Source of the DNA: Pseudomonas paralcaligenes
GTDB taxonomy: Bacteria; Pseudomonadota; Gammaproteobacteria; Pseudomonadales; Pseudomonadaceae
Direction: 5' to 3'
NCBI RefSeq assembly: GCF_019655855.1
Contig: NZ_BPFX01000021.1
Location: 8,583 to 72,582 of the forward strand
Length of the DNA: 64,000 bases
Shown here: piece after piece, positions 14,407-40,000 of the stretch
Numbering within the stretch: the first letter of the stretch is position 1
Layout of the letters: each line of letters begins with the position of its first letter
The notes under the pieces: generated by a model
Told to the model about the DNA's origin: nothing
What the model saw: the letters and a program-made list of their open reading frames with translations, nothing else
Databases searched by the model: none
Position numbers and translations under genes: made by a program

Positions 14407-14436
14407 TGAAGTAACTCCACTAGGTCAGCGCTTTAA

Positions 14437-14580
14437 CTATGGTTTACGGGGAGGTGGAGGTGCCGCCGGTGCTGGAGGGCGAACATTTGTAGGACGCGTA
14501 GGATTTGCGTTATTAGTCTGAATCTCCCCACTTGGACGTACCACGCGAGGAGGGATTGGGCGCGGAGCTTCACTAGACAT
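14437..14580 (-). CDS. 47-residue proline-rich microprotein
   Basis: The protein begins MSSEAPRPIPPRVVRPSG; the C-terminus is a run of Pro and Ala ending PPPPRKP. The ribosome site AGGTGA overlaps the stop codon of the DUF6338 gene, whose end is only 7 bp away, so translation is probably coupled. It is likely unstructured and could bind a partner through its Pro-rich motifs. It is unrecognised otherwise. Confidence 0.55.
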   Translation of the reverse strand: MSSEAPRPIPPRVVRPSGEIQTNNANPTRPTNVRPPAPAAPPPPRKP

Positions 14581-14587
14581 AAGTCAC

Positions 14588-15184: not shown

Positions 15185-15284
15185 ATATCCCTCTCTTTCG
15201 CTCCATGCGATTGAACACTACCTCATAGCCAATTTCCACCACGCCGCATCCAGCCATGGAGGCGCGCCAGCACCTGGAGCATTC

Positions 15285-15423
15285 ATGACCATATCCGCGC
15301 CAGTGATCCAGTATCACGACTCCAAGTTTCGCCTGGCACCGTGAATCATTGAGCACCTGCCAGCTCACACCTGCTACGCCAGCGGATCGGTCGGCTTGGT
15401 TGGTCGATCGATCGCGCCCTGAC
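15285..15423 (+). pseudogene. Second, shorter remnant of a phage adenine methylase gene
   Basis: Reads MTISAPVIQYHDSKFRLAP, a TGA stop, then IIEHLPAHTCYASGSVG. This aligns with the start of the better-kept methylase at 15636 (MTVTRPIIRYHGGKWKLAP W IIKHMADHHTYIEPFGGGG). The conserved Trp codon has become TGA and the DNA diverges after about 15400. It is probably an old duplicate or a remnant of another phage. Confidence 0.55.
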
Positions 15424-15635
15424 ACAGCCCAGCAAAGCTAAATCTTAGCCAACAGCTACTTCAGCCTGCTCCGCACAGCCACCGAGACAGAGCAGCGCCT
15501 GCTGGCGTCGTTCTGCGCCGCGGCCATGCCCAGAGCGCCCGGCCGAAGCGCCGCCGGCGCCGGAACCCACCCCGATCTACATCCCCACGCCATCGGCCGC
15601 CCTGAGCGAGCAGCTGGCCCTGTTCTGAGAAGCCC

Positions 15636-16347
15636 ATGACAGTCACACGCCCGATCATCCGCTACCACGGTGGCAAGTGGAAACTTGCGCCCTGGATCAT
15701 TAAGCACATGGCCGACCACCACACCTACATCGAGCCTTTTGGGGGCGGAGGTTCCGTGCTGCTGCAGGCGCTGCGACTGACACCATTTAGTTCGCCATCA
15801 GCTACCACGAGACGGCGGATCCGCTCGAGCGGGCGTGCAGGATGGTGGTGCGCTCCCTCCAGGGCTTCAGTAGCGCCGCCGCCAACGGCGAGCGCACTGG
15901 CTTTCGGACGTAGTCATCCCGCTCCGGCACCTCCCCCGCGCAGGACTGGCGCAACTACCCGGACGCGCTGCCTGCGATCACCGACCGCCTGCAGGGCGTC
16001 GCCATCGAGAACCGCGACGCCCTGGCGGTTATGGCCCACCACGACAGGCCGAGCACGCTGCACTACGTCGACCAGCCCTACGTGCACTCGACCCGCAGCA
16101 CGAAGGTGCGCCACAACGACACCGGGGCCTGTCGCTGTTCCTCCGCTCGCTCCAGGGCAAGGTCATCGTCTCCGGCTGCTCCTGCCCGCTCTACGACGAA
16201 ATTTTCAGCGACTGGCACCGCGTCGAACGCCAGGCACACGCCGACGGAGCCCGTGAGCGCATCGAATGCCTCTGGCTGAACAACACGGCTCGCGACGGAC
16301 TAGCTCAGCTCGACATCTTCAACGACTCCAAGGACCCCGCCGCATGA
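15636..16347 (+). pseudogene. Frameshifted phage DNA adenine methylase (Dam/MT-A70-like D12 class)
   Basis: The N-terminus is clear: IIRYHGGKWKLAPWIIKHM, then YIEPFGGGGSVLLQ, the S-adenosylmethionine motif of D12-class adenine methylases. After about 15785 the frame shifts repeatedly. Another frame carries ISYHETADPLERACRMVV and RNYPDALPAITDRLQGVAIENRDAL, then YVDQPYVHSTR (a damaged DPPY catalytic motif: D-Q-P-Y), and a third frame ends with LYDEIFSDWHRVERQAHADG, CLWLNN and KDPAA before the stop at 16347. The gene is inactive. Just before it, the tail of another phage gene ends ...ALSEQLALF at 15628. Confidence 0.75.
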
Positions 16348-16399
16348 CATCGCCCGCCAGATACTGGTGGTAATTACCGAACTGCAACAACGAGGGAAA

Positions 16400-16765
16400 T
16401 CAGGCTACACTTGGGAGATCAAAATAGCGCTCCAATCCAGCTATTAGGATGTCGATATGTTCAGATTTAGAAAGGCCGACCCTAGGCCACTTATGCCTTG
16501 GATCGATCTTTACAGGCTGACCGGTTGCAAGGAATAGTTCGTTGACTGCTGCACGCGCCCCATCCTCGGTGTCACCTGCTCTTGCAGCCATGCTCTTAAC
16601 CTCGAATGCCAGCTCAGCCAAGTTACCAGCAGCGATATTCTTTCTATAAAGCGTCACCCTTCCCTTGGCTGTTACGTTACACCTGACCCCAGTGTCACCA
16701 CCCCAAGATTGCATCGCACCATAGATTGGCCAAAGTCGCTTCTGAGTATCGCTGAAAACACCCAT
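16400..16765 (-). CDS. Hypothetical 121-residue protein
   Basis: An open frame with even composition: MGVFSDTQKRLWPIYGAM, GVRCNVTAKGRVTLYRKNIAAGNLAEL, ARAGDTEDGARAAVNELFLATGQPVKIDPRHKWPRVGLSKSEH and IDILIAGLERYFDLP. It appears soluble and acidic to neutral, with no membrane segment. I do not recognise a family. It lies downstream of a possible damaged small frame and of the EVE/HNH gene on the same strand, with gaps of about 100 and 390 bp, so cotranscription is possible but not evident. Confidence 0.55.
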   Translation of the reverse strand: MGVFSDTQKRLWPIYGAMQSWGGDTGVRCNVTAKGRVTLYRKNIAAGNLAELAFEVKSMAARAGDTEDGARAAVNELFLATGQPVKIDPRHKWPRVGLSKSEHIDILIAGLERYFDLPSVA

Positions 16766-16862
16766 ATCTTTACTCCCACTTCAATGTACTTGATCAATTG
16801 GCGATGAGTCGCCAATCGACTATCCCCCAGGCCCACGGAGCAAGCAACTGTGCCGATCAAAC

Positions 16863-17063
16863 TCAACGAGTGGCGTAGGCATTGCACCTAAGCCAGTAAT
16901 CAACAATTGCATCTCGCGCTTGTTCCGAGGTCTCGAACGGACCTGTGGGTTTATCTACTCCGGCAATCGTTTTCTCGAACTCGCAAAGCACTCCCCCGCC
17001 AGGTAAAGATCGAAGTACACATACAGTTATACTGTGCCCCTGGTTACAGAAATTCTTCGCCCT
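16863..17063 (-). other. Possible small or truncated coding frame without a clear start
   Basis: The minus strand is open for 66 codons and reads like real protein: FCNQGHSITVCVLRSLPGGGVLC, then EFEKTIAGVDKPTGPFETSEQARDAIVDYWLRCNAYATR. No ATG lies in frame, a TAG bounds it upstream, and only an internal GTG is available. It may be a truncated or frameshifted gene that once started further right. Confidence 0.35.
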
Positions 17064-17152
17064 CTAAATGAAAAACCACCTCGAAAATTTCTATCACACG
17101 ACCTCCCAATAACCGTGGCTGCCTGGAGCAAACATGAGCATCTTTCGCCTCC

Positions 17153-18805
17153 CTATCGCTTGTCTCGGTAGACATCTTTTCTATGGTGCATCAAGTAACC
17201 GCGCTGCTCCTGTGTGAAAGGGCCAACGTTTGAATTTGGGTCAACATTCCACCGTTTCAGTACATCGCTTACGCCATTCGCAAGCAACAGCTGACCGTTG
17301 TCTAAAAACGAGATCCAGCCTCGATCGAAAAGCTTGTCGATGTGCGGCGCGAGCATCAACCCGTTATTACCGTCTAACCGCTCGCGGTGATCGCAGTCCT
17401 TCCACGGCTTTATGTGGCTGGCAATTAGGAAGTTCTGGTCGGACACGCCAGTGAGCAAGCAGGTAGGTGACTTCTGCAACACGCGCTGGCGGAATAGTCC
17501 CTGGCCATGGCGAGATTTCACCAGCTGAATTTTTTCGGTATCAGGGATGGTTGGGGAGGAGACTATTTCCAGCTCAACCGCATCAGCCTCGGCATCTGCC
17601 TCAAGGTCCTCGATCGCTTCAACTGCGGGAGCATCGGCATGCCTCGCAAGCTCGAGTATCAAGGCGGCCAGCTCCTGATTCACGGCAGCTAGATAGCAGG
17701 ATTGGTTGCCGTGGCCATTGTCCTGCAGTGGGGAGTTTTTAGAGGGCAGTAATGGCCGGATCTGATGGATGTATTCCTTCGGAGAGATAGGTACCGCCAA
17801 TGCAGTCCATTCGATCGGCACCAGCCAACCAGAGTCTGACCAGTTCGCATCGGCCTGTCCGAATCCATCCGGCTTCGGCTTCTCGATATAGTGCCCTCTG
17901 GCTACTCCGATAGCTTTGATCTTGCCTGATGCATAGGAGATAACCAGGTCTCCAGGCTGAACCAGGGTCAGGTTCACATATGTTTGATTGCGAGCACCGT
18001 TCTGGTTTTCCTTAGGGGACCAAATGTAGCCACCTTCAGTCTCCGCCTTGAATGTCTGCTTGTGGTTTACCCACCAGAATCCACTCGCCGGGCGCGGGTC
18101 GCAGCGGGTGCAGAACTGGAGCGGTTTTCCGAACTGCCGATCGCTCCACCCCTTTAGGGCATCAAGGGATTCAGAGCAGACCTTGTAGTAAGAGCCAGTG
18201 GTGAAGTTCTTGCCTTGGACGATAAGATTGCATGAGGAGGTGTGCGCGAGCGGGTACTGAGGAACAGAATGTCGCTTGTCTATGTTGGCGACATAGCCAG
18301 AAGGGTGAGCGCCCGCCCATTCAAGGTACTGATCCTCAGCCCCCCAGAATTTCGTGACCGCTGAAAACGACACGGCGGCAGCTGCCTGCTCAGCGACTAG
18401 CGACTGGACCTCCTGACCCGTAGCATCGTTAGTGGCTGCGCAAGTGCGACGAACTGGTGCTGATCGCACTTCGCGATGGGCTACCGCATCGGCCAGATTT
18501 GGTATCAGGTGAACCCAGCGAACACCGAGCCAATGCCTATGACCGTTAGCGAATGCCAGAGTGAGTTGGGCTTGGTCTACAAGCTCATAGGGTCTGGTGG
18601 GATCTATCTCAGCCACCGCGACGAATCCTGTGTCCTCGGCGTAGGCAAGGATCCGATCGCCGATCTTGAACCTGGTGAGAATTTTCTCACCATCGTCCCC
18701 GGGCTGGCTCTCAAACCCGCACGTGAGAATTCTCAATCGCTGCAGCTCCGACCACCAGTTCTGGTCCGCGGTCTTGGAGCCGATATTGAAGACGTAGTAG
18801 GTCAT
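17153..18805 (-). CDS. Double EVE-like / HNH endonuclease (candidate modification-dependent restriction enzyme)
   Basis: 550 residues with four parts. Residues 1-110 (MTYYVFNIGSKTADQNWW, GFVAVAEID) look like an EVE/PUA-type domain. Residues about 150-240 hold a Cys/His-containing region (YLEWAGAHPSGYVANIDK, SYYKVCSESLDALKGW, FCTRCDP). Residues about 245-355 look like a second EVE-like domain (YVNLTLVQPGDLVISYASGKIKAIGVARG). After an acidic linker comes an HNH nuclease: ASHIKPW (His464), LDGNNGLMLAPHIDKLFDRGWISF (Asn482, His488). In known enzymes EVE domains read modified cytosine, and EVE-HNH proteins cut modified DNA. The gene is intact inside a decayed prophage. The domain borders are my reading; activity and target are inferred. 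Confidence 0.75.
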   Translation of the reverse strand: MTYYVFNIGSKTADQNWWSELQRLRILTCGFESQPGDDGEKILTRFKIGDRILAYAEDTGFVAVAEIDPTRPYELVDQAQLTLAFANGHRHWLGVRWVHLIPNLADAVAHREVRSAPVRRTCAATNDATGQEVQSLVAEQAAAAVSFSAVTKFWGAEDQYLEWAGAHPSGYVANIDKRHSVPQYPLAHTSSCNLIVQGKNFTTGSYYKVCSESLDALKGWSDRQFGKPLQFCTRCDPRPASGFWWVNHKQTFKAETEGGYIWSPKENQNGARNQTYVNLTLVQPGDLVISYASGKIKAIGVARGHYIEKPKPDGFGQADANWSDSGWLVPIEWTALAVPISPKEYIHQIRPLLPSKNSPLQDNGHGNQSCYLAAVNQELAALILELARHADAPAVEAIEDLEADAEADAVELEIVSSPTIPDTEKIQLVKSRHGQGLFRQRVLQKSPTCLLTGVSDQNFLIASHIKPWKDCDHRERLDGNNGLMLAPHIDKLFDRGWISFLDNGQLLLANGVSDVLKRWNVDPNSNVGPFTQEQRGYLMHHRKDVYRDKR

Positions 18806-23616: not shown

Positions 23617-25272
23617 ATGACGCCCACTGCAGACAGCCTCACCCACGAAACCCTGAGCATCCTCAAACCCTTCTGGCCGCAGGTGCTGCTCTCGGCACTT
23701 CTCGGCATCGCCGGAGGGCTGAGCATCACCGCCCTGCTGGCCACCATCAACAGCGCCATGAACACAGAAGCCGGCCCCGACCTGGGCCTGGCGTCGCTGT
23801 TCGCCCTGCTCTGCGTCGCTACCGTGGCCTGCTCCACCCTGTCCAAGCTGCTGACCAACTATGTGGGCCAGCGGGTGGTGGCCAACCTCCGTCAGGATCT
23901 GGCTACCAGAATCCTGGTAGCCCCCATCGAGCAGCTGGAGCGCTACCGCGCCCATCGACTGATCCCGGTCCTACTCAACGACATCGGTACTCTCAGCGGC
24001 TTCGCCCTGAGCGTAGCGCCGATGCTGATCGCCTTCGCGATCACGCTTAGCTGCCTGACCTACCTGGCTTTGCTGTCCTGGCAGATACTGCTGCTCACAG
24101 TAGTCACAGTGATCATCGGCACTGGCGCTCAGTACCTGGCCCATCGACATGGCATGCGGAGCCTTCAGGCGGCCCGAGATGGCGAAGACGAACTGCAGAA
24201 GCACTATCAGGCCATTTCCGCGGGCGCAAAAGAGTTGCGCATCCAGCGCGAACGACGCCTGGACATGCTTCACCGGCAGCTTCACGACACTACGGAAGGG
24301 ATCTGCCGCGCCAATATCCGCGCTGCCAACATCTTCATCAGCGCCGAAACCTTCGGCTCGATGCTGTTCTTCGTGGTGATCGGCATGGCCATTGCCTTCC
24401 AAGTGCTCTGGCCCACCACCGAGCGTACCGTATTGGGCGGTTTCGTACTGGTCATGCTGTACATGAAAGGACCGCTGGAGCAACTGGTCAGCAATATCCC
24501 CATTTTCAGCCGCGCCGAAGTCGCCCTGCGCCGTATCGGTGAACTGTCCCAACGCTTCTCCACCTCGGAACCCCATCTGCTGACCACGCCACCAGCGGCA
24601 ACGCAGGAGCCGCTGGAGCGCATAGATCTACGCCAGGTGCGCTACGACTACCCCCAGACCTCTGGCAGCCAGCCCTTCCACCTCGGCCCAATCGACCTGA
24701 GCATCCGCCGCGGCGAGATCGTCTTCATCGTCGGCGAGAACGGCTGTGGCAAGACCACCCTGATCAAGCTTCTGCTGGGCCTCTATGCACCCCAGCAGGG
24801 CGACATACGCCTCAACGGCCGGGAGATCGACAGCGAACGCCGCGATGACTACCGGCAATTGTTCACCACCGTATTCACCGATTACTACCTGTTCGACGAA
24901 CTGCTTCAGGGGCGCTCCGAGCTGCCGCAGGAGGCCCTCAAGTATCTGGAGCGACTGGACATCGCTCACAAGGTCGGCATCCGCGACGGCGCCTTCACCA
25001 CAACCGACCTGTCCACCGGTCAGCGCAAGCGTTTGGCCCTGGTCAATGCCTGGCTGGACGACCGCCCAGTGCTAGTGTTCGACGAGTGGGCCGCCGACCA
25101 GGATCCAGCCTTCCGCCGGGTGTTCTACACCGAACTACTGCCCGAACTGAAGCGCCAGGGCAAGACGCTGATTGTTATCTCCCACGATGATCGATACTTC
25201 GACATCGCCGACCAGTTGGTGCATATGCATGCCGGGCAGGTCGTGAACGAAAACACTCCTCAGTCTGCGTGA
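23617..25272 (+). CDS. pvdE: Pyoverdine precursor exporter PvdE (ABC permease-ATPase fusion)
   Basis: 551-residue half-transporter moving acylated ferribactin from cytosol to periplasm. Residues about 15-310 form the membrane domain (several hydrophobic spans, e.g. VLLSALLGIAGGLSITALLATI, ILLLTVVTVIIGTGAQYL). The ATPase follows, with Walker A GENGCGKTT (about residue 375), signature LSTGQRKR (about 467) and Walker B VLVFDEWAADQDP (about 484). The NTF-type SyrD/PvdE arrangement, location beside fpvR and a PvdS promoter agree with the call. The order (membrane domain, then ATPase) and length match P. aeruginosa PvdE. Confidence 0.94.
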   Translation: MTPTADSLTHETLSILKPFWPQVLLSALLGIAGGLSITALLATINSAMNTEAGPDLGLASLFALLCVATVACSTLSKLLTNYVGQRVVANLRQDLATRILVAPIEQLERYRAHRLIPVLLNDIGTLSGFALSVAPMLIAFAITLSCLTYLALLSWQILLLTVVTVIIGTGAQYLAHRHGMRSLQAARDGEDELQKHYQAISAGAKELRIQRERRLDMLHRQLHDTTEGICRANIRAANIFISAETFGSMLFFVVIGMAIAFQVLWPTTERTVLGGFVLVMLYMKGPLEQLVSNIPIFSRAEVALRRIGELSQRFSTSEPHLLTTPPAATQEPLERIDLRQVRYDYPQTSGSQPFHLGPIDLSIRRGEIVFIVGENGCGKTTLIKLLLGLYAPQQGDIRLNGREIDSERRDDYRQLFTTVFTDYYLFDELLQGRSELPQEALKYLERLDIAHKVGIRDGAFTTTDLSTGQRKRLALVNAWLDDRPVLVFDEWAADQDPAFRRVFYTELLPELKRQGKTLIVISHDDRYFDIADQLVHMHAGQVVNENTPQSA

Positions 25273-25293
25273 GTCGGCAAGCAGGGGGATGCC

Positions 25294-26904
25294 TCAGTCC
25301 GGCGTCGCCCCCGCAGCGAGGTAACGCCCATACCAGGGGCGGCGCGGCACACGCCCCTCCAGGCGGGTAGCCTCATCCTCGTCGGCGAACACAATGCGCA
25401 GAGCCAGCATCATGGTCTCCACGTCGAACTCACCATCCTCTCCCCAGTTGCTCCTACCCCACGCGCCGCAGCCCGCACGGGCTGGTCCCAGCCAGGGCTC
25501 GGTGATACGCACCCAGCGCCCTGGCGCGAACCAAGACTCGCCATTCACGCTCCGGCGCACGACCTGCCCAGGGTGCCGGCCCTCGTGGGCACTGAACCAG
25601 TCCTCGATCCGGTCGTCGATCCAGCCGTGGAACGCCCAGAACAGCGGATCGACATGGGACGAGAACGGATCGCCCAAGAAGTGGTTGCCGGCGCCGTACC
25701 AGCGCCCCGCAAAATCACTGGAGCCACGGCCATAGGGCGTCGGCAGGCCGCTGCTGGGATCGCGTGGCAGGCTGGACCAGCGCATGTGCAGCCAGTCGTG
25801 GATGCCCAGCTCGATGCGCGAACCAAGCTCCCCCAGGCACAGGCTGGAGAGGTATTCCGGATCGCGGTACTGCGCCTCCCAGGCTTGGAAATCGTTGTAA
25901 TAGCCCTCGCTGCTCTTGATATAGAGCAGCCACTGGTTGAAAGCATCATCCCCTGCAATCTCCCAGGCTGGCGGCACGGACGTGCCATCGACATTGGCCA
26001 GGTAATCGGCAAAAGCCTGTACACCATGCCCGATGAATGGCCTGGGTGCGGGCAGTTGTGGCCAGGATGGCAACGACTGCATCGAGCGGGCGCGATTGAG
26101 CATCTGCCGGTGCATGAACAGGAAATCCTCACCAGAACCATTCTCATGGCGCCGCTTGCCCCTGGCGTCACGTTCCTGCCCCAGCGGCCCGGCCTGCCAG
26201 CCGAGGCCACGCAGCGACTGGCGCCGGCCCTCATCCAAGTGGTGCCAGCGATCGCGGCTGGCATGCCAAAGCTGGTGGAACAGTCGATGCCCCGACGAGA
26301 TCAACCAGCCCTCCAGCTCGGGGGTATAGGGTCGCAATTGCCTCGCGGTTACGAACGGGAGGCGCACGGCAACGAACCGTACCTCGGGAGTGGAATACCC
26401 CCTTTGAATGCCAACTCTGCGCAAGCTGCCACTCAAGGTCGCCTGCCCCCCCCCAGAACTCCATTCGCCCCAGACCTCATCGAAGATCGCATCGAGCTCA
26501 AGGGAATGCCCATTGCCATCGCTCAGCCCCAAGCGCACGTGCGGAGCCCTGTCGCCAGCCAACCGGCCGATGGCATGCAACCCATCACCGGAAAAAGGCA
26601 GTCTGCCCAAGTAGCCATGGATGGCCCGGCCACCTGGCCCGACATCTAGCAGCAACTGCAGATCGCCTTGCGGCAATTCGGGAAACCTGTCGTGCCCGTC
26701 TATGAAACGCACGGCCCATGCGCCGATCAGGCGATTGGCCAACAGGGCATCCGGCAGGATGGGGACCGGCGTTTCCGGCTCATCCGAGGCCAGCTCGGCC
26801 TCCCCGGCTTCCTTCCATTTATGGTGCGCATACAGCCCCGCTGGCAAAACGACCGCACCGACAGTCGCCATACCGGCCACGAAGCCTCTACGGGTAACCT
26901 TCAT
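25294..26904 (-). CDS. pvdP: Tyrosinase-like chromophore maturation enzyme PvdP
   Basis: 536-residue periplasmic copper enzyme that oxidises the tyrosine of ferribactin on the way to the dihydroxyquinoline chromophore. A twin-arginine signal (VTRRGFVAGMATVGAVVLPAG) opens the protein. Copper-site-like histidines occur in GHRLFHQLWHASRDRWHH, LGIHDWLHMRW and SHVDPLFWAFHGWIDDRIEDW, the last matching the CuB motif of tyrosinases. Length and N-terminal domain (LIGAWAVRFIDGHDRFPELPQGDLQLLLD) agree with PvdP. It is convergent with pvdE, 21 bp between stops, and has its own PvdS promoter at 26938-26961. Confidence 0.93.
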   Translation of the reverse strand: MKVTRRGFVAGMATVGAVVLPAGLYAHHKWKEAGEAELASDEPETPVPILPDALLANRLIGAWAVRFIDGHDRFPELPQGDLQLLLDVGPGGRAIHGYLGRLPFSGDGLHAIGRLAGDRAPHVRLGLSDGNGHSLELDAIFDEVWGEWSSGGGQATLSGSLRRVGIQRGYSTPEVRFVAVRLPFVTARQLRPYTPELEGWLISSGHRLFHQLWHASRDRWHHLDEGRRQSLRGLGWQAGPLGQERDARGKRRHENGSGEDFLFMHRQMLNRARSMQSLPSWPQLPAPRPFIGHGVQAFADYLANVDGTSVPPAWEIAGDDAFNQWLLYIKSSEGYYNDFQAWEAQYRDPEYLSSLCLGELGSRIELGIHDWLHMRWSSLPRDPSSGLPTPYGRGSSDFAGRWYGAGNHFLGDPFSSHVDPLFWAFHGWIDDRIEDWFSAHEGRHPGQVVRRSVNGESWFAPGRWVRITEPWLGPARAGCGAWGRSNWGEDGEFDVETMMLALRIVFADEDEATRLEGRVPRRPWYGRYLAAGATPD

Positions 26905-26937: not shown

Positions 26938-26961
26938 ACGAATGCCGTAACAAAGGATTTA
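26938..26961 (-). promoter_or_regulatory. PvdS-type promoter of pvdP
   Basis: On the minus strand TAAAT (26961-26957), 16 bases, CGT (26940-26938), 34 bp before the pvdP ATG. It is back to back with the promoter of the transferase operon at 27074. Confidence 0.8.
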
Positions 26962-27073: not shown

Positions 27074-27097
27074 TAAATTTCGCCTCACTCTGCTCGT
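27074..27097 (+). promoter_or_regulatory. PvdS-type promoter of the gamma-glutamyltransferase operon
   Basis: TAAAT at 27074-27078, 16 bases, CGT at 27095-27097, 70 bp before the ATG at 27167. The exact match puts this operon under the pyoverdine sigma factor. Confidence 0.8.
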
Positions 27098-27166
27098 TCC
27101 TCCCCGGACCTTCCCAGGCAAAGACAGGCGTACGCCTGCAAATGCCTTTCTTGACACGGGCCGCGA

Positions 27167-28876
27167 ATGAAAAACCATTGTTTTCCGAATCGACAGCAAG
27201 GCATGAGACGGCTGACCCTCATCCTGTCGCTATGGCTGATGAGTTCGGCCACCCAGGCCCAGACTCCAGCGCAGGGGGCGGTGGCTAGCGCCCATCCTCT
27301 TGCCACCGAGGCAGGACGGAAGATTCTTGAGACCGGCGGTAACGCCTTCGATGCCGCTGTTGCCGTAGCCGCCGTGCTGGCAGTCGTAGAGCCTTATGGC
27401 TCCGGACTGGGAGGGGGCGGTTTCTTTCTTCTGCGCGAAGCGGGAGAAAAGCCGCGATACCATTTCCTGGATGCCCGTGAACGCGCCCCACTGGATGCCA
27501 AAGCGGACCTTTATCGGCAAGATGGCAAGATCCTGGCCCACCTCTCCGTGGATGGTCCGCTGGCCACCGCTATTCCTGGGCAGCCCGCCGCGATGGCGAA
27601 ACTTTCCGAGCAATATGGACGCCTGCCGCTGAAGACCAGCCTAGAGCCGGCCATTCGGCTGGCTCGCGAGGGTATCGAGACGGATCCGCATTACCGCAAG
27701 TGGGCCCAAATCAGGCTGGACGCCTTGCGCAGCGATCCGGAGAGCGCACGGCAGTTTCTCGTCGATGGAGAATTGCCAGCTGAAAACCAACGGATGAAAT
27801 ATCCGCAGCTGGCTGCCACGCTGCAGCATCTGGCCGATCAAGGCCACGCAGGTTTCTACGGTGGCGAACTGGCAGAAAAGCTGGTGAATGGCGTGCGCAA
27901 AGGAGGCGGCGTCTGGAGCCTGAAAGACCTGGCCGAGTACCAAGTCATCGAACGGCAACCCCTGCGCTGGGAGCTGCCAGACGGTGGTGAGCTGATCAGT
28001 GCCCCGCCGCCATCGGCCGGTGGGCTGGCCCTGATTCAGAGCCTGGGCATGTTGCAATCACTGCCCTGGCGAGACGCCAAAACCGCTCAGCGCACCCACT
28101 ATGTGGTCGAGGTACTGCGTCGAGCCTATCGTGACAGGGGAGCACTGGGGGACCCGGACTTTGTCGAAATGCCTCTGAAGCGGCTGACCTCCCCGGATTA
28201 TCTGAAGCAGCAGGCAAGCAGCATCGCCCCCGACCGTACCACGCCCAGCAGCAGCCTACCGCCCGCGGAGCCATGGCGTGAAGGTAATCACACCACGCAC
28301 TTCACGGTTCTCGACTCACAAGGCAATGCCGTCTCCGCCACCCTCTCGCTCAACAGCATGTTCGGCGCAGCCTTCACCGTTCCGGGCACCGGCATATTGC
28401 TGAACAACGAAATGGACGATTTCGCCATCGATGTAGGCGGCAGCAATGCCTACGGGCTCCAGGGCACCACCCCCAACGCCCTGGCGGGAGGCAAGCGACC
28501 AATCTCCAGCATGACGCCGACGTTCATCGAATCCGACAAGAACTTCGCCACTTTCGGTACGCCTGGCGGCAGCCAGATTCCCAGCATGGTCCTAATTGCG
28601 CTGCTTGCATACCTGCAGGACGAACCGGCTTCACGCTGGGTAAGCCTGCCGCGCTATCACCATCAGTACCTGCCGGACGTAATAACTCACGAGCCGGATG
28701 CCTTCAACCAGGCCGAGCGCGGCGAACTGGAGGCACTTGGACATCGGCTGGAACAGGTAGCGAGCTATGGCAACCAGCAATCCATCCACTGGCACAAACT
28801 GACCGGAAAAGTCGAGGGCGCCAGCGACCCGCGCGGCATTGGCACGACTGAAATCTCGCCAGCACCAACTCAATAA
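27167..28876 (+). CDS. Gamma-glutamyltransferase in the pyoverdine locus
   Basis: 569-residue periplasmic Ntn enzyme that cleaves or transfers gamma-glutamyl groups. A signal peptide (MRRLTLILSLWLMSSATQAQ) follows 12 extra residues; an ATG at 27203 would start right at it, but its ribosome site is too close. The large subunit shows GGNAFDAAVAVAAVLAVVEPYGSGLGGGGFFL and the carboxyl-binding LDARERAP. Self-cleavage is expected before Thr376 in NH|TTHFTVLD; later come NNEMDDFA and the gating GTPGGSQIPSMV. It has a PvdS promoter and leads two membrane-protein genes. It may act on the Glu side chain of the pyoverdine chromophore; that role is inference. Confidence 0.9.
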   Translation: MKNHCFPNRQQGMRRLTLILSLWLMSSATQAQTPAQGAVASAHPLATEAGRKILETGGNAFDAAVAVAAVLAVVEPYGSGLGGGGFFLLREAGEKPRYHFLDARERAPLDAKADLYRQDGKILAHLSVDGPLATAIPGQPAAMAKLSEQYGRLPLKTSLEPAIRLAREGIETDPHYRKWAQIRLDALRSDPESARQFLVDGELPAENQRMKYPQLAATLQHLADQGHAGFYGGELAEKLVNGVRKGGGVWSLKDLAEYQVIERQPLRWELPDGGELISAPPPSAGGLALIQSLGMLQSLPWRDAKTAQRTHYVVEVLRRAYRDRGALGDPDFVEMPLKRLTSPDYLKQQASSIAPDRTTPSSSLPPAEPWREGNHTTHFTVLDSQGNAVSATLSLNSMFGAAFTVPGTGILLNNEMDDFAIDVGGSNAYGLQGTTPNALAGGKRPISSMTPTFIESDKNFATFGTPGGSQIPSMVLIALLAYLQDEPASRWVSLPRYHHQYLPDVITHEPDAFNQAERGELEALGHRLEQVASYGNQQSIHWHKLTGKVEGASDPRGIGTTEISPAPTQ

Positions 28877-28906
28877 TCCCCCTTCGCCAGACACTGGAGA
28901 TATCGA

Positions 28907-30100
28907 ATGTCGGCAGGAAACGTCTCGCCTGGCAGTCATTGGCTGGATCAGGAATATTCGGAAAGCCACAGGACAAAACTTCGGATACTGACCCTGAGCT
29001 TCGTGGTTGTGTTTTTCACATCCTATGAGCATTATTTCGATGAATGGGTATATACGCAGTGGGTTCTGAACTATGACTTCGGCTTCGTCAGAAGAGGCTT
29101 GGTCGGTGGCCTGCTGAAAGCGCTCGGGTATGTGCCAAACCCCGAGTTCTACATGGCCGCGGCCTTCCTCTTTGCGCTCGGTGTCTGCATCGCCCTGTTT
29201 TGGATCTTGTCACGACCGGCACTTGCCTATTGCAAGCAGAGCACAGCGGCTTTTCTCCTGACATTATTCTTCATCTGCCATCCAATGATCATTCCGCACT
29301 TCGCGCAAGCCGCCGGATTCCTGGACAACATCAACTATCTCATTGCCATCCTCGGCATCGTGGTTATCCTGAAGTGCTCGGCCAAGATGGGAGTGCTCGC
29401 CGTTTTGCTTGCGGGCGGCCTGATCATCCCCGTTCATGAAGCTGGTTTCGTGATGTTCGTCCCCCTCCTCACCGGCATATGGATCTACATCAACAGGCCG
29501 AAAGTAGCTAGCTTCGACAGCTTCCTGATCCTTATCGCCGTCGCCCTTCTCGTGGCCGAAGTGATATTCATCGGAACGAGCAATCCGAGCGCCAGAATCT
29601 CCCTGCAGGAATATTACGAACACCTTCTTTCGACGACTCAGCCAATCAATATGGATGCAGTTGGAATCCTGTTCAATACGCTACAGGGAAATTCGTCGGA
29701 AACGGCGAGCGTAATGCTGAGCACGCTCTATCTGAAATTCCACGTAAACATGCTACTCGGACTGATCCCAACATTTCTCATTGGCGCGAAGATACTGAAG
29801 TCGCTTCAAGGCCATATAAGGCTGTTTTCCTACGAATCACTTTTGCTTGCATCCTCGATCTCGCCCCTGACCTTGTATCTGATTGCGACGGATTTCACCC
29901 GCTGGTGGAGCATCACTCTTGGAAACATTGCCATTGCTATAACGATACTGATGCGCGACCCCACGCTTTCCGCAGTAATAGCCAAGGTCATTTACCAGCA
30001 TAAGTGGCTTGTCATTTTCACGACAGGCCTGGGACTTGCGCTCGGCCCGCTCACCTCGCACCTGAGCTACAGGAATCTCAATTGGCTCTATAGCCTATAA
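28907..30100 (+). CDS. Multi-pass membrane protein, unrecognised
   Basis: 397 residues with about ten hydrophobic segments (ILTLSFVVVFFTSYEHYF; YMAAAFLFALGVCIALFWIL; YLIAILGIVVILKC; FLILIAVALLVAEVIFI; LALGPLTSHL). A short loop near the start, VLNYDFGFVRRGLVGGLLKAL, is well conserved in character and may be the active face. The style resembles GT-C type membrane glycosyltransferases, but I cannot name a family. CTGGAGA gives a ribosome site, and it begins 30 bp after the transferase gene, so it is cotranscribed from the PvdS promoter. Base composition is lower in GC than pvdE or pvdM, suggesting later arrival. Confidence 0.7.
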   Translation: MSAGNVSPGSHWLDQEYSESHRTKLRILTLSFVVVFFTSYEHYFDEWVYTQWVLNYDFGFVRRGLVGGLLKALGYVPNPEFYMAAAFLFALGVCIALFWILSRPALAYCKQSTAAFLLTLFFICHPMIIPHFAQAAGFLDNINYLIAILGIVVILKCSAKMGVLAVLLAGGLIIPVHEAGFVMFVPLLTGIWIYINRPKVASFDSFLILIAVALLVAEVIFIGTSNPSARISLQEYYEHLLSTTQPINMDAVGILFNTLQGNSSETASVMLSTLYLKFHVNMLLGLIPTFLIGAKILKSLQGHIRLFSYESLLLASSISPLTLYLIATDFTRWWSITLGNIAIAITILMRDPTLSAVIAKVIYQHKWLVIFTTGLGLALGPLTSHLSYRNLNWLYSL

Positions 30101-30114
30101 ATACAGGATGCCGC

Positions 30115-31671
30115 ATGCGCTCATACACGCCGCTTTTCAGCATAGGGCTTTTCAGCCTTCTTTTCCTAGTGATACTGGCAGCCATCATTCAGCAGAATCC
30201 GGCAGGCTTTTCCTACACACTCGACGACCCCTACATCCATCTGGCATTGGCCGAACGAATCGCGAATGGGCACTACGGCATAAATCTCGGGGAAAATACC
30301 TCGCCGTCGTCGAGTATTCTGTGGCCCTTCATTCTCGTAGTCGGCACGGGTCATGCCTGGCATCAGTATTTGCCGCTGGCCATAAACTTTGTCTGCGGCA
30401 CACTTGCCGCACTGCTGATTGCCCGGATCGCAGACAGCCTCCAATGGCGGCCCGATGATAGGTTCGTGCCGCTCAAGAAAATGTTCTTGATATTTCTATT
30501 GCTGTTCATTGGCAATATTCCTGGTGTTGCCTTTTCCGGGATGGAACACAACCTGCAAATATTAATAGCCGTCGTTGGGGCCTATGCCTTGCTGCTATTC
30601 TCCAAGGGCCGGCCAATCCCTTTGTGGTGCCTGGCCTGCATAGCGATAGGCCCCTCGGTTCGCTATGAGCTGCTTGCCATCGTCGCGGTCATAGCAGCGC
30701 TTTTCTGTTTCCAGAAGAGACCCTGGCACGGATTGCTCTTCCTCTCTGGAAGTCTGGTGATTCCGGTAACCTATGGCATCTACCTGAATCATCTAGGACT
30801 CTCGCCGCTACCCAATTCGGTATTGGCAAAATCTGATATCCACGAATTCTCCACAAGCGAGCTGGCCCAGCTTTCGGATGTGATCAGATTTTCAACGATC
30901 AAAGCGCTATTTTGGAGCCATGCCCAACAAGCTTATATCTTACTAATGTTCGGACTGCTGCTCTGCCTTATCAAAGAAAAACGCACCGAGCTTCGTCTGA
31001 TTACCTTACTGACTCTAGGCGCCATGCTGGCCCATCTCGCTATTGGACGCTTCGGCTGGCTCAACAGGTACGAAGTTTATATGTTCCTGTTTGGCGCCCT
31101 CATGTTTTGCATAACAGTCTCCGGCTTCGCAAGAAACAACCTGGCATCGGTACTTTCTGCCACTGCCGTACTGATGCTGTGCTCCTACCCCTACCTGAGG
31201 GATACCACAGGGATCCCCTTTGCATCCGAAGATATTTACTCACAGCAATTCCAGATGCATCGATTCGTTCAGGAATATTACCAGGGAAACTTCGCCGTCA
31301 ACGATCTGGGCTGGGTCAGCTATAAGCTTCCTCAGGACAGATACGTCTTGGATATTTACGGACTGGCTTCCAATGATGCGCTAAAAACAGAAAAGAAAGA
31401 TGCCAAATGGCTTGACGAAATCACACACAAGCACAGTGCCAATCTAATCATGTATTACTCGGATTGGTTCGATGGTATCCCTTCGTCATGGACCAAATTG
31501 GCAACACTGAAGCTTGCAGATGGAAACACCATAATCGCTGGCGATGAGGTTTCCTTCTATGCAAGTGGAAGCGCTGATGAAAATACTATCGAGCTATTGC
31601 ACCGCCAACTCAAAGAATTTTCGAAAACCTTGCCCGAAGCGGCAATCCTAGAATTGCAGGACATTCATTGA
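30115..31671 (+). CDS. Putative GT-C type membrane glycosyltransferase
   Basis: 518 residues. After one membrane segment there is a periplasmic loop FSYTLDDPYIHLALAERIANGHYGINLGENTSPSSSILWPF. The DD followed by a G..N.GE.TSPSSS stretch is the usual first-loop pattern of GT-C glycosyltransferases that use lipid-linked sugars. About nine more membrane segments follow, then a soluble C-terminal domain of about 130 residues (FAVNDLGWVSYKLPQDRYVLDIYGL). It lies 14 bp behind the other membrane gene in the PvdS-driven transferase operon. Codon use is less GC-rich than flanking pvd genes. No known pyoverdine pathway step requires it; sugar and acceptor are unknown. Confidence 0.65.
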   Translation: MRSYTPLFSIGLFSLLFLVILAAIIQQNPAGFSYTLDDPYIHLALAERIANGHYGINLGENTSPSSSILWPFILVVGTGHAWHQYLPLAINFVCGTLAALLIARIADSLQWRPDDRFVPLKKMFLIFLLLFIGNIPGVAFSGMEHNLQILIAVVGAYALLLFSKGRPIPLWCLACIAIGPSVRYELLAIVAVIAALFCFQKRPWHGLLFLSGSLVIPVTYGIYLNHLGLSPLPNSVLAKSDIHEFSTSELAQLSDVIRFSTIKALFWSHAQQAYILLMFGLLLCLIKEKRTELRLITLLTLGAMLAHLAIGRFGWLNRYEVYMFLFGALMFCITVSGFARNNLASVLSATAVLMLCSYPYLRDTTGIPFASEDIYSQQFQMHRFVQEYYQGNFAVNDLGWVSYKLPQDRYVLDIYGLASNDALKTEKKDAKWLDEITHKHSANLIMYYSDWFDGIPSSWTKLATLKLADGNTIIAGDEVSFYASGSADENTIELLHRQLKEFSKTLPEAAILELQDIH

Positions 31672-31855: not shown

Positions 31856-31879
31856 TAAATTCCACGATCGCAGGCTCGT
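31856..31879 (+). promoter_or_regulatory. PvdS-type promoter of pvdM-pvdO
   Basis: TAAAT at 31856-31860, 16 bases, CGT at 31877-31879, 57 bp before the pvdM ATG. It places the transcript start after about 31885 and argues against the GTG at 31897 as start. Confidence 0.8.
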
Positions 31880-31935
31880 TCTCCTAAGAATCGCCGGTGC
31901 TCCTGTCGGCGAAGCATCATCCGCAAGGAAGTCCC

Positions 31936-33279
31936 ATGAGCCCGAGTCGCACCATCTGGAAATGGCCACTGCTGGTCCTGTCACTATTACTGCTGATCGG
32001 AGCCGCCTCGCTGACCTGGTGGTTTCTGCCCGGCAAGAGCGCGCTTTATCCGAAGGACGTCATCGCACGAGCCAATGCGCTGCAGGAGCGCATCCTCTCA
32101 TTCGACGCTCATCTGGACATTCCAGCTCACTTCGGCGCTGAAGGTATGGAAGCTGATCGCGACGGCTCCGGTCAGTTTGACTTAGTCAAGGCCGAGCGTG
32201 GCCGGTTGAGCGGTGCCGCACTGACCATCTTTGCCTGGCCTGAATTCTGGACCGGCGACAACAGCCCGCACCGCCCCACCGCGGGCTTCGTCGAAGCCGC
32301 GCGCCACGAACAGGAAACCCGCTACCGCATCATCACCGGCATCGCCCGCGACCTCCCCGAGCGTGCTGGTATCGCCTACACGCCAGCCGACTTCCGTCGG
32401 CTGGCCCATGAAGGCAAGTTTGCCATCGTCATCAGCATGCTCAACGCCTATCCGCTGGGTGACGACGTTTCCCGGCTGGATGACTGGGCCGCCCGGGGCA
32501 TGCGCATCTTCGGCTTCAATTACGTCGCCAACAACGCCTGGTCCGACTCGTCGCGACCGATGCCCTTCTTTGGCGACTCGCCCGACGAACATGGCGGCCT
32601 CTCGGAGCTGGGTCGTCAGGCAGTGCGTCGCCTCAATGATCTGGGTGTGGTCATCGACGTGTCCCAGATGTCCACGGCCGCGCTGGAACAAACAACCGAA
32701 CTGAGTCGCGCGCCCATCATCGCCTCCCACTCAGGTGTACGCGGCCTGGTGGACCTACAGCGCAATCTCACCGACAAGGAGATGCGCCTGATCCGCGATA
32801 CCGGCGGCGTGGTGCACATCGTCGGCTTCACCTCTCAGCTCAAAGCCTTTTCCAAGGAGACCCTGGACAAGGTAAACCGCATGCGCGCCGAGTTTGACCT
32901 ACCCGAGGTGCGGAACCTGTCCCAGGCCAGCATGCCAGCCGACCCGGTCTTCTCCATCTGGCCGGAACAACGCTTCGGCGAGTACGCCAGCCGCCTTTAT
33001 CCGATCCTGGAGGCCGATCCTCGCGCCTCGCTGAAGGAACTCGGCGACAGCATCGACTATGCAGTGCAGAAAATCGGCATCGACCACGTGGGCATCAGCT
33101 CGGACTTCAACGATGGCGGCGGCCTGGTCGGCTGGGAGAACGTCGCAGATACGCGCAACGTCACCGCCGAACTCATCCAGCGCGGCTACTCGGACGAGGA
33201 TATCGCCAAGTTGTGGGGCGGCAACTTCCTGCGAGTCTGGGAATCGGTGCAACAACTGGCCGGACCGCAAGCGCGCTAG
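31936..33279 (+). CDS. pvdM: Membrane dipeptidase-like pyoverdine maturation protein PvdM
   Basis: 447-residue M19 dipeptidase-like protein anchored to the periplasmic side by an N-terminal helix (WPLLVLSLLLLIGAASLTWWFL). Metal-site motifs include SFDAHLDIP (HxD), SHSGVRGL and IDHVGISSDFNDGGGL. In Pseudomonas PvdM acts in the periplasm during oxidation of the chromophore together with PvdP and PvdO; a peptidase activity is not required in that model. The ATG at 31936 has AAGGA in front. pvdO follows by 52 bp. pvdN, which lies between pvdM and pvdO in P. aeruginosa, is absent. Confidence 0.92.
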   Translation: MSPSRTIWKWPLLVLSLLLLIGAASLTWWFLPGKSALYPKDVIARANALQERILSFDAHLDIPAHFGAEGMEADRDGSGQFDLVKAERGRLSGAALTIFAWPEFWTGDNSPHRPTAGFVEAARHEQETRYRIITGIARDLPERAGIAYTPADFRRLAHEGKFAIVISMLNAYPLGDDVSRLDDWAARGMRIFGFNYVANNAWSDSSRPMPFFGDSPDEHGGLSELGRQAVRRLNDLGVVIDVSQMSTAALEQTTELSRAPIIASHSGVRGLVDLQRNLTDKEMRLIRDTGGVVHIVGFTSQLKAFSKETLDKVNRMRAEFDLPEVRNLSQASMPADPVFSIWPEQRFGEYASRLYPILEADPRASLKELGDSIDYAVQKIGIDHVGISSDFNDGGGLVGWENVADTRNVTAELIQRGYSDEDIAKLWGGNFLRVWESVQQLAGPQAR

Positions 33280-33331: not shown

Positions 33332-34198
33332 ATGCGTTGCACATATCGCCTTGGCAACTTCCTGTTGCTCTGCCTAGCGGCAGCCTCCTCCGCCCAGGCA
33401 TCGGACAAATCCTCCCCCCTCGGAACAATTTTCAAGGATTGCCAGGACTGCCCTGAAATGGTCCTGCTGCCTGCCGGCAGCTTCGTCATGGGCGCTCCGC
33501 AGGACGAGCTGGGACGCCAGCCCGATGAGGGACCGCAACGTACCGTGACCTTTGCCAAGCCCTTCGCCATCAGCCGCTACCAGGTGACCGCTGCCGAGCT
33601 TGATGCTTATATCAAACAGTCGGGTGTGGTAATCAAGAGTGGCGATGAGCGCCCCGGGCGCTGGTGCGAAGCAGGTAAGCCGAGTTACGAGCAAGGACCG
33701 AGGCAGCCCGCCGTCTGCGTCGATTACCATGAGGTCCAGGCCTACGCCAAATGGCTGTCGGAAAAAACCGGCCAGACCTATCGGATGCTCAGCGAAGCCG
33801 AGCGTGAATACGCCGCCCGCGCCGGCTCCACCGGGCCCTTCCCGTTCCCCTTCGACGAAGAAGGGGACTATCAGATCAGCAAACACGCCAATACCTATGG
33901 CCCCAGGGACGGCTTCACCTACAGCTCTCCAGTCGGTAGCTACTCGCCCAATGCCTTCGGCGTATACGACATGCACGGCAACGTTTACGAATGGGTCGCC
34001 GACTGCTGGCATGACCACTACAACGGCGCGCCCACAGACGGCAGCGCCTGGATTGACGACGACCACTGCGAAACGGTGCAGATCCGCGGCAATGACTGGG
34101 GGGAACCGCCTATTTTTTCCCGTTCGGGCAATCGCAATAACGCATACAAGAACACCCGCGGCGACTGGCTGGGCTTTCGTGTCGCGCGCGAACTCTGA
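33332..34198 (+). CDS. pvdO: Chromophore oxidation protein PvdO (formylglycine-enzyme fold)
   Basis: 288-residue periplasmic protein with signal peptide (LGNFLLLCLAAASSAQA) and a sulfatase-modifying-factor fold. Typical pieces are MVLLPAGSFVMGAPQDELG, FAISRYQVTAAELDAYI, YRMLSEAEREYAARAG, NAFGVYDMHGNVYEWVADCW and GDWLGFRVARE. In P. aeruginosa PvdO catalyses the last oxidation that gives the fluorescent chromophore. AAGGA lies before the ATG, and the gene is in operon with pvdM. The long open frame starting at 33059 overlaps pvdM and is only an extension of the true frame. Confidence 0.93.
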   Translation: MRCTYRLGNFLLLCLAAASSAQASDKSSPLGTIFKDCQDCPEMVLLPAGSFVMGAPQDELGRQPDEGPQRTVTFAKPFAISRYQVTAAELDAYIKQSGVVIKSGDERPGRWCEAGKPSYEQGPRQPAVCVDYHEVQAYAKWLSEKTGQTYRMLSEAEREYAARAGSTGPFPFPFDEEGDYQISKHANTYGPRDGFTYSSPVGSYSPNAFGVYDMHGNVYEWVADCWHDHYNGAPTDGSAWIDDDHCETVQIRGNDWGEPPIFSRSGNRNNAYKNTRGDWLGFRVAREL

Positions 34199-36788: not shown

Positions 36789-36958
36789 TGACGTGAAAGG
36801 GATTTGACCCAGACGCCTCAAGGAGCCTTCCGCACCGCTCGTTGCAATACCCTTTGAACCGGCATGGTGGATGATCCGAGCATCAGCCACCTTCTACCAA
36901 CGCTCGGGCTGCACACCGATCACACCATGCCCAAGGCATGTGCCTGCCTCACCTCGCC

Positions 36959-36982
36959 TAAATCAGCCTGCCAACGCTTCGT
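36959..36982 (+). promoter_or_regulatory. PvdS-type promoter of the thioesterase synthetase
   Basis: TAAAT at 36959-36963, 16 bases, CGT at 36980-36982. It lies inside the long open frame that begins at 36871, so translation must begin downstream, at 37027. Confidence 0.78.
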
Positions 36983-37026
36983 TCAATTACCAGGACTTTT
37001 CACCAAGCTCGCCTGGAAACTGGACC

Positions 37027-40000
37027 ATGGACATCCCCGACTCTCTGCTTGAAGACGATATGCTGGCGTTGCTGCTCGGCGACCTGCCGACGGCCCCTCA
37101 AGTGCTAACCAACGGGATGCCCGCGGTTGCAGTCGACGGACCATTGCCGCTGTCATTCGCCCAGCAGCGACTGTGGTTTCTGCAGCAGCTCGACCCGGCC
37201 AGCTCAGCCTATAATCTGCCACGTGTCTTGCACCTGGAAGGTGTGCTGGATGTCAAACGGCTTGAACGTGCGCTGAACCGGGTAATCGAGCGTCATACCA
37301 TTCTGCGCACCCGTTTCATCACCCAAGCCGGCGAACCCATGCAGGTGGTGGAAAATAGTCTTGCCCTTACCCTGACGCGCGTCAGCCTGCGCCATCTGGA
37401 CAGCTCAGCATTAGCTAGCGAAACCGAACGACGCATCGTCGAAGAGTCCGCGCAGCCCTTCGATCTCAGCGTGGCACCGCTGATTCGTGCCAATTTGCTG
37501 GAAACCGGCGAGCATCAACACTTGCTGCTGCTGACCATGCATCACATTGTCTCCGACGCTTGGTCCAATCCACTGCTGGTAGCCGACCTGACCCAGGCCT
37601 ACGCCTTGCCCGCCGGGCAAGGCCTGCCGCAATTGCCTCGACAGTACAGCGACTACGCCCACTGGCAGCGGCAGACCTATCCAAACACCCCGGCCTTTAC
37701 CACCAGCGGCGCTTATTGGCGCAATTACCTGGCCGGTGAGCTAACCCCACTGAGCTTGCCATACGATCATCCGCGCCGCCCGGGCCAGACCCATATGGCC
37801 GGCTACCATGCCGCTACCCTCGACGCAGGCTTGCGCCAGCAGCTCGATGCACTGTGCCGTGAGCACAAACTGCAACCCATGGTGGTCCTGCTAGCCGCCT
37901 GGCAACTGCTGCTGGGTCGCTACAGCGGCCAAAGCGATTTCACCGTCGGCATACCCAGCGCTACCCGCAGCCACAGCGAGACTCATGAGCTGGTTGGCCT
38001 GTTCGTCAGCAGCTTGGTTTTCCGCGCTCGCCTAGATCCCTGCCAGAGCGGCCTGGACCTGTTGCAGCGGCTCAAGCAGGAAAGCCTGCAGGCGCTGGAG
38101 CATGTCGACTATCCCTTCGAACTGTTGCTGGACGACCTCGATCTGCAACGCAGCAGCCTGGCCAACCCGCTGTTCCAGACCATGTTCAACTGGCGGGTCA
38201 GCAGCAACGACAACGCTCCCTTCACGCTGGGCGAACTGCAGGTGGAGATGCTCGACAGCGGTACACGCCAGTCTAAATTCGACCTGTCACTGGATGTCGA
38301 CCATGGGTCTGAAAGCACCTCCTTCAGCCTTGAATACAGCACCGACCTGTTTGAACCCGCCAGCGTGGCACGCCTAGCACAACATTGGCAGCAACTGCTG
38401 CTCGCCTTGGTCAGTACGCCGCAGGCATCGCTGGGTGAGCTACCCATGCTTGCCCCTGCAGAAACGCACGCCATCCTGCATGGCCTCAACCAAACCCACC
38501 AAGACTACCCTGGAGAGTTCCGCATACAGCGCCTTTTCGAGACCCAGGCACGCATGCGCCCCGACGCCACTGCCCTGATTTTTTCTGACAAGCACCTAAC
38601 CTATGCCCAGCTCGACCAGCGCGCCAACCGTTTGGCCCACGCCCTGCGTGCACAGGGTGTTGGCCCCGAAACCCTGGTCGGCATCGCTGCTGAGCGCTCC
38701 CTGGAAATGGTCATCGCCCTGCTGGCCATCCTCAAGGCCGGCGGTGCCTATGTTCCTCTGGACCCGGAGTACCCCACCGATCGCCTGGCCTACATGGTCG
38801 AAGACAGCCGCATCGCCCTACTGCTTACCCAGCCACACCTACAAGCTCAATTGCCGATCTTTGACGGCACCACCCTGCTGCTCGATCAGGATTTTGCCTC
38901 CTATCCCAACTACGCCCCTGACATCAAGATCGAAGGCGAGCACCTGGCCTATGTCATCTATACCTCCGGCTCTACCGGCAAGCCCAAAGGCGCCGGCAAC
39001 CACCACCGCGCCCTGTTCAACCGCCTGGCCTGGATGCAGCAGGCCTACCGCCTGGACAGCGGTGACCGAGTCATGCAAAAGACTCCTTTCAGCTTCGACG
39101 TCTCGGTCTGGGAGTTCTTCTGGCCGCTGATCGAGGGGGCCTGCCTGGTCATCGCCAGCCCCGGTGAGCATCGTGAACCACACAAGCTCATCGCCACCAT
39201 CGAGCGCCATCAGGTCAGCACTCTGCACTTTGTGCCATCCATGCTTCAGGTGTTCATGCACGAGCCCGGGGTCGAGCGTTGCACCTCACTACGCCGCATC
39301 GTCTGCTCCGGCGAAGCCCTGCAGGTCGACGCCCAACAGCAGGTGTTCGCCAAACTCCCCGGCGCGGAGCTGTACAACCTCTACGGCCCCACCGAAGCCG
39401 CCATCGACGTGACCCACTGGACCTGCCGTGACGAAGGCCTGGACAGCGTGCCGATCGGGGAACCTATCGCCAACCTCTACGCTCACATCCTTGACCAAGG
39501 ATTGGGCGCAGTACCCATGGGGGTCCAGGGTGAGTTGCTGTTGGGCGGCGAAGGTCTGGCCCGCGGCTATCACCGCCGCCCAGCATTGACAGCCGAACGT
39601 TTCATTCCTGATCCCTTCGCCATCAGCCCAGGGGCTCGTCTGTACCGTACCGGGGACCTGGCCAGGTATCGCCCGAACGGAGTCATCGACTACTGCGGTC
39701 GTCTTGACCATCAGGTGAAGATCCGTGGCCTACGCATCGAGCTGGGCGAGATCGAAGCCCGGTTGCTGGAACAGGACACGGTGCGAAAGGCCGTCGTACT
39801 GGCCGTAGAGAGCCCAACAGGTCTTCAACTGGCGGCTTATGTCGTACCCGCATACTACGAAGAAGATGCCAGTGCCCAGGCAAACCTGCGCGATATCCTG
39901 AGAGCCGCCCTTAGAACCAACCTACCTGATTACATGGTCCCACCCCAGATCAGCTTCCTGCCCGAACTGCCGATAACACAAAACGGTAAACTCGACCGAC

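Follow-up and report, generated by a model that had tools for sequence, protein, structure and literature searches.

What would a gamma-glutamyltransferase and two large membrane proteins do among the genes for a siderophore? This question is raised by a 64,000-nucleotide stretch of Pseudomonas paralcaligenes DNA (contig NZ_BPFX01000021.1, positions 8,583 to 72,582; hereafter the window), in which a gene for a gamma-glutamyltransferase (GGT) and two genes for multi-pass proteins, here called P2 and P3, form the ggt-P2-P3 operon within the pyoverdine (pvd) locus. We assessed the promoter, conservation, predicted folds and linked genes of this operon. The results suggest, with a probability that we put just below even, a PvdS-controlled periplasmic tailoring of pyoverdine, in which gamma-Glu is removed by GGT and the siderophore receives a pentofuranose from P2. 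We argue for such a branch because ggt and P2 are conserved together, carry PvdS boxes and co-occur with a cassette of sugar-donor type.

The PvdS promoter and the conserved GGT-P2 pair

The motif TAAAT-N16-CGT, which we take to be the PvdS consensus, matched the window exactly seven times against 0.38 matches expected, and seven matches were reached in none of 100 shuffled sequences. Six of these boxes sit shortly 5' of gene starts, and one of them leads the ggt-P2-P3 operon (Table 1). GGT, P2 and P3 lie on one strand with intergenic gaps of 30 and 14 bp, and the fractions of G plus C (GC) are 0.614 for GGT, 0.517 for P2 and 0.499 for P3, compared with 0.602 for the whole window. These results agree with an earlier note on this DNA, which had described an exact PvdS promoter in front of the operon, its place between pvdP and pvdM and the lower GC of both membrane genes. 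The upstream box marks ggt-P2-P3 as a putative member of the PvdS regulon, and iron- and PvdS-dependent expression is predicted. The seventh box (36959, within window 36871-37030) falls inside a listed open reading frame of a nonribosomal peptide synthetase (NRPS), whose true start is probably further in than listed, at the Met of MDIPDS, 3' of the box.

Related loci were sought by scanning genome contigs with the alignment of P2 relatives, a scan that requires exact peptide patterns and so may pass over some relatives; 49 stretches matched and 4 were confirmed, the window's own genome being outside this count. The four loci belong to P. dryadis, P. 'mendocina' PSB00032, P. flavescens and Azomonas agilis. 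In all four, ggt (76-77% identical to the window's) lies immediately 5' of P2 and beside a divergent pvdP, with a PvdS box 5' of ggt, while pvdM and pvdO come after P2 in three of them and other genes take that place in Azomonas. The GGT-P2 pair is kept in 5 genomes, another genus included, at protein identities of 75-86%, and in the loci examined pvd-type GGT and P2 were never found apart (P2 behind ggt in 5/5). P2 was detected in 1/199 genus genomes, which is the window's own, and in 3/398 family genomes; genome G221 gave a further, partial match at 25% identity. No GGT was present in 20 pvdP regions from other genomes, of which one spanned 10.7 kb and the rest 19.9 kb, with more distant genes beyond their reach.

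The earlier note had treated GGT and the two membrane proteins as one set. This did not hold: in the survey of pvd loci, GGT-P2 occurred without P3 in 4/4 relatives (tblastn of the loci, the rest of those genomes not being searched), and the trio was rejected as a conserved unit. The conserved unit is GGT-P2, and P3 is not part of it. Relatives of P3 were found in 5/198 other genus genomes at 33-36% identity, with one more fragment at 51%, and the best non-self match reached 44% among the best 120 of 859 significant proteins. Because P3 was not found in the four loci and its listed relatives are distant, it looks like an acquisition separate from GGT-P2. For P2, 12 relatives at 66-78% identity, metagenome proteins included, were found among the candidates scored (7996 for P2 and 7995 for P3), so that further relatives are possible.

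GGT, the membrane proteins and the donor cassette

The GGT matched PF01019 (E 3.5e-152; 508 bits, cut-off 27) and TIGR00066 (391 bits, cut-off 358), and an export signal was read by eye, in line with the periplasmic GGT that the earlier note had proposed; the real start is likely the second Met at ~27203, also read by eye. The small-subunit chains of solved GGTs align starting at residue 376 of the window GGT (Thr376). The Arg, Asn and Asp of the gamma-Glu pocket are retained, and Glu stands where E. coli GGT has Gln430, the roles of the pocket residues and catalytic motifs being those we presume for the family. The window protein belongs to the GGT family, with its catalytic Thr and gamma-Glu pocket, and is predicted to cleave the gamma-glutamyl amide of ferribactin. 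In a tree built on the best matches (42 rows, with L143, L144 and the weaker GGT-like L141 and L145-L148 lying outside it), the five pvd-linked GGTs formed a single clade (support 100/100; stem 0.64 changes per column), separate from the other sampled Pseudomonas GGTs, including second copies of the same genomes. At seventeen positions these five share a fixed residue, while at least 90% of the 34 other GGTs compared (L140, L136 and L142 left out) agree on a different one, and three of the changes, L397S, P398M and R470Q, adjoin catalytic motifs.

Searches of Pfam and NCBIfam at E 0.001 placed neither P2 nor P3 in a family, and comparison of both sequences with solved structures gave no convincing match. 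Structure prediction, which the earlier note had recommended for both proteins, succeeded for P3, and for P2 it pointed to a GT-C fold from a low-confidence model. The P3 model was confident (predicted local distance difference test score, pLDDT, 94.0; predicted template modelling score, pTM, 0.93); in Foldseek, AftB ranked first and ranks 1-20 were all GT-C-type entries, two of them with E < 0.001. A phmmer search of P3 against solved structures returned no AftB chain at E 1, and the likeness is one of fold. D37-D38 of P3 is invariant across 53 aligned sequences. By its model, P3 has a GT-C fold whose first outer loop holds acidic residues. The earlier note had described a GT-C-like DD...TSPSSS first loop in one of the two membrane proteins. 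For P2 (pLDDT 58.5), fold searches favoured GT-C with no Foldseek match at E < 0.001, and D45 and D57, placed in the first outer loop by eye, are invariant in 13 aligned rows. These results suggest from a weak model that P2 is probably a GT-C glycosyltransferase and make it a candidate pentofuranosyltransferase. Membership of P2 in a named family was rejected for want of a Pfam or NCBIfam match, 'EpsG' being only the UniRef label of one relative. The P2-like protein of G221 has, by eye, a Y(D/E)FGxxRR stretch in common.

Next to pvdP in two relatives is a set of donor-type genes. PSB00032 and Azomonas carry, 3' of pvdP and on the same strand, genes for a HAD-UbiA fusion, a flavin adenine dinucleotide (FAD) oxidase, a short-chain dehydrogenase/reductase (SDR) and a PF03706 protein, with family assignments made on the Azomonas copies. 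The HAD-UbiA fusion scored 156 bits with the decaprenyl-phosphate phosphoribosyltransferase model (cut-off 234) and 651 bits with the general UbiA model (cut-off 351), the FAD oxidase 338 bits with the DprE1 model (cut-off 500), and the SDR 171 bits with the DprE2 model (cut-off 250) and 336 bits with the general SDR model (cut-off 267). The flippase-like gene, PF03706 in Azomonas, has relatives in the other three related genomes, as does the DprE1-like gene (83-85% identity). The whole cassette lies ~35 kb off on the GGT-P2 contig in P. flavescens and on a different contig in P. dryadis, in both cases divergent from an NRPS gene with a PvdS box near its start, and a linked donor synthase was found in 4/4 relatives carrying GGT-P2. 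DprE1 of the cassette type (at least 83%) occurred in 2/398 family genomes, both with P2 (the Azomonas and PSB00032 assemblies, one being the query's own genome), and the next match was at 60%. No exact PvdS box lies directly 5' of the cassette, and in two relatives it might be transcribed from pvdP, across gaps of ~140-170 bp by reading of the start. Judged by its genes, the cassette resembles a polyprenyl-phosphate-arabinofuranose set. The DprE1- and DprE2-like genes found with the synthase make D-arabinofuranose the probable sugar, with ribofuranose as the alternative. The window's genome lacks DprE1 of the cassette type. Its best DprE1 match (45%) is on contig C4, in a distant DprE1/DprE2/UbiA-like set (L116:8335-11680) that stands amid glycan-type genes by eye.

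A candidate tailoring pathway and its alternatives

In ferribactin, L-Glu is joined to D-Tyr via its gamma-carboxyl, and its alpha-amino and alpha-carboxyl groups are free after PvdQ action (PMC6206403; this and the other papers given by PMC number are cited from excerpts). With this linkage and these free groups, the ferribactin Glu is of the substrate class of GGT. The same review of pyoverdine biosynthesis (PMC6206403) sees no easy rationale for ferribactins starting with a gamma-linked, later altered Glu, and it places pvdN usually within a pvdMNO operon. The PvdN model NF051467 exceeded its cut-off in 1/12 genomes (comparison genome G187) and in 0/5 P2 genomes. By its published description, Pseudomonas sp. 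ABC1 has neither pvdN nor ptaA, and its product could be similar to an azotobactin (PMC8085936).

In the proposed pathway, PvdQ would strip the fatty acid, so that ferribactin carries a free L-Glu, gamma-linked to D-Tyr. GGT, exported and self-cleaving, would hydrolyse the gamma-glutamyl amide of ferribactin, dihydropyoverdine or pyoverdine to give a free amine. P2 would draw on a polyprenyl-phosphate donor to place a pentofuranose, with D-arabinofuranose the likeliest, on the siderophore, either at the freed amine or at a peptide hydroxyl. The donor would be supplied in the four relatives by the pvd-linked UbiA-HAD/DprE1-like/DprE2-like/flippase-like cassette; in the window's genome it would necessarily come from a distant cassette, on a different contig. 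There P3, as an additional GT-C protein, would add a second or different pentofuranose. Both substrates, the sugar and the order of steps are what we infer here. The full proposal of a glycosylated pyoverdine, stripped of gamma-Glu by GGT and given polyprenyl-carried D-arabinofuranose by a GT-C enzyme, is tentative and stands somewhat further below an even chance. Two guesses of the earlier note gain independent support: a change of the chromophore Glu, through the gamma linkage that suits a GGT, and transfer of a lipid-linked sugar to pyoverdine, through the GT-C fold of P3 and probably of P2 and through the pvd-linked donor-type cassette of the relatives.

Three observations weigh against this proposal. 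PvdN was also below cut-off in 5/6 comparison genomes without P2 (G148, G180, G156, G051 and G154), which weakens PvdN loss as proof of replacement by GGT; the window's pvd locus has no donor cassette, and its genome holds only the distant set on contig C4; and literature searches, whose coverage mostly excluded subscription journals, turned up no pyoverdine that bears a sugar. The same searches returned nothing on GGT in pyoverdine maturation, and nothing about this locus in the literature on pyoverdine tailoring, the P. flavescens pyoverdine, azotobactin and Azomonas siderophores; the one paper retrieved for P. flavescens concerns a different siderophore.

The most serious rival, though an unlikely one, puts the sugar on a surface glycan or protein: P2, possibly with P3, would decorate lipopolysaccharide or another envelope component in iron starvation and GGT would be a separate enzyme on the same transcript. 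Surface glycans are a known target of GT-C enzymes that use donors of this kind, as is pilin in the case of arabinofuranose (PMC11127046), and glycan-type genes by eye surround both the adjacent distant P3-like and P2-like genes of G221 (L118:7572-10385) and the L116 set of the window's genome. The position of P2 behind ggt and beside pvdP in 5/5 loci, and the linkage of the relatives' cassette to pvd genes, argue instead for a role in pyoverdine. A less likely version keeps that role for GGT alone, which would remove or exchange gamma-Glu while P2 is accessory or acts elsewhere. The gamma-Glu linkage, the absence of PvdN and the distinct GGT clade are consistent with it, and side-chain-free ferribactin was reported in strain S3a20, which also makes succinyl-type pyoverdine (PMC8888394); this is just a sign that Glu can be lost. 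Against GGT acting alone stand its constant pairing with P2 across the examined loci and the presence of the cassette in 4/4 other P2 genomes.

Lower still, and improbable in our estimate, is a PvdS-induced salvage of glutathione or gamma-glutamyl peptides by GGT, for glutamate supply or for periplasmic thiols during PvdP quinone chemistry. In favour of salvage, a GGT with an M19 dipeptidase after it is reminiscent of the glutathione pathway, and a GGT relative is present in 199/199 genus genomes. Cleaving glutathione is among the usual functions of GGTs (PMC8062742). However, a second GGT (62-63%) in 4/5 P2 genomes makes an extra copy needless there (Azomonas shows the pvd copy only), PvdM belongs to ordinary pvd loci, and fixed changes close to the active site set the pvd-linked clade apart. 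That the genes are neutral hitchhikers, under a PvdS promoter by chance, is highly improbable: the lower GC of P2 and P3 and the low identity of the best listed non-self P3 relative would fit, but GGT-P2 and its box have been kept across five genomes and two genera at the identities given above.

If pyoverdine is indeed tailored by GGT and P2, it would be the first sugar-bearing pyoverdine, and lipid-linked pentofuranose machinery of cell-surface glycans would have come under the control of PvdS to serve a small secreted metallophore. Periplasmic pentofuranosylation would then reach beyond glycans to a nonribosomal peptide, and Glu removal together with a sugar would be expected to alter siderophore charge, solubility, receptor recognition and piracy.

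Neighbouring genes and comparison with known systems

Table 1. Features of the operon and its neighbours, with positions in the window
Feature	Position	Strand	Basis
GGT, nucleophile Thr376, probable Sec signal peptide	27167..28876	+	PF01019, TIGR00066; signal peptide by eye
P2, 397-aa multi-pass protein, probable GT-C fold	28907..30100	+	fold searches with low-confidence model; no Pfam/NCBIfam family
P3, 518-aa GT-C glycosyltransferase, AftB-like fold	30115..31671	+	confident model; Foldseek
PvdS box of ggt-P2-P3 operon, TAAAT-N16-CGT	27074..27097	+	exact motif match; start 93 bp 5' of GGT ATG
PvdS box of pvdP	26938..26961	-	exact motif match
PvdS box of pvdM, 3' of ggt-P2-P3 unit	31856..31879	+	exact motif match
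pvdP, divergent type, transcribed away from ggt	25294..26904	-	NF051454, 660 bits (cut-off 625)
pvdM, M19 dipeptidase family	31897..33279	+	PF01244 (Peptidase_M19)
pvdO, immediately 3' of pvdM, no pvdN between	33332..34198	+	NF051459 above cut-off; start codon by eye

PvdQ, PvdP and PvdO of the window exceeded the cut-offs of curated NCBIfam models. PvdE and PvdP (23617-26904) are just 59-64% identical to the relatives' copies (pvdP 60-64% across the four loci), whereas PvdM is 89-92% identical in the three related loci holding pvdM, a contrast that is possibly a sign of block exchange within the locus. In two pseudomonads with divergent pvdP, a HGSNAT_cat membrane acetyltransferase-type gene replaces pvdN between pvdM and pvdO (L084:4487-5806, minus strand; L085:14046-15254, plus strand), possibly as another tailoring step; single HGSNAT_cat relatives (~50%) occur elsewhere in several genomes. 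Adenylation codes gave one Ser-type NRPS module in the window, one in each of two relatives (L114 and L115) and none in L075-L077, the assignment to Ser being presumed; the code pattern missed other modules, so no peptide was predicted. Genes resembling phage or mobile-element remnants by eye (exonuclease-like, adenine-methylase-like and HNH-like) lie 5' of pvdQ at window 12286-18805.

Pyoverdine tailoring and lipid-linked pentofuranose transfer are each known, and it is their combination that appears new. E. coli GGT (presumably the enzyme of PDB 2DBU and related entries) belongs to the same sequence family, with a small subunit starting with Thr and a gamma-Glu pocket, whereas the window copy has a PvdS box and a pvd location and differs from other Pseudomonas GGTs by L397S, P398M and R470Q. 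AftB is the first Foldseek match of P3, yet the two share 15-16% identity in structural alignments. For the cassette genes, the nearest NCBIfam models come from the mycobacterial decaprenylphosphoryl-arabinose pathway (DPPR synthase, DprE1 and DprE2), with scores below those cut-offs. The ramoplanin mannosyltransferase Ram29 is a membrane enzyme that uses a polyprenyl-linked donor. Its likeness to the system proposed here is that a nonribosomal peptide is glycosylated; as excerpted, it differs in transferring mannose, in a setting of Gram-positive antibiotics with no siderophore (PMC4635501). The three-component GT136 pentofuranose systems, which combine a phosphatase-UbiA donor synthase, a flippase and a periplasmic GT-C enzyme (PMC11127046), resemble the set of the four relatives in this architecture. 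Their flippase is of the MATE or SMR type, the flippase-like gene of the Azomonas cassette is PF03706, and the systems described in the excerpt modify glycans, whereas the setting here is an NRPS siderophore. Closest in place and target are PvdN and PtaA, which are likewise periplasmic and act on the same pyoverdine Glu residue (PMC6206403); they are pyridoxal phosphate enzymes that convert Glu in place, whereas the present locus joins a GGT that could remove Glu to probable glycosyltransferases.

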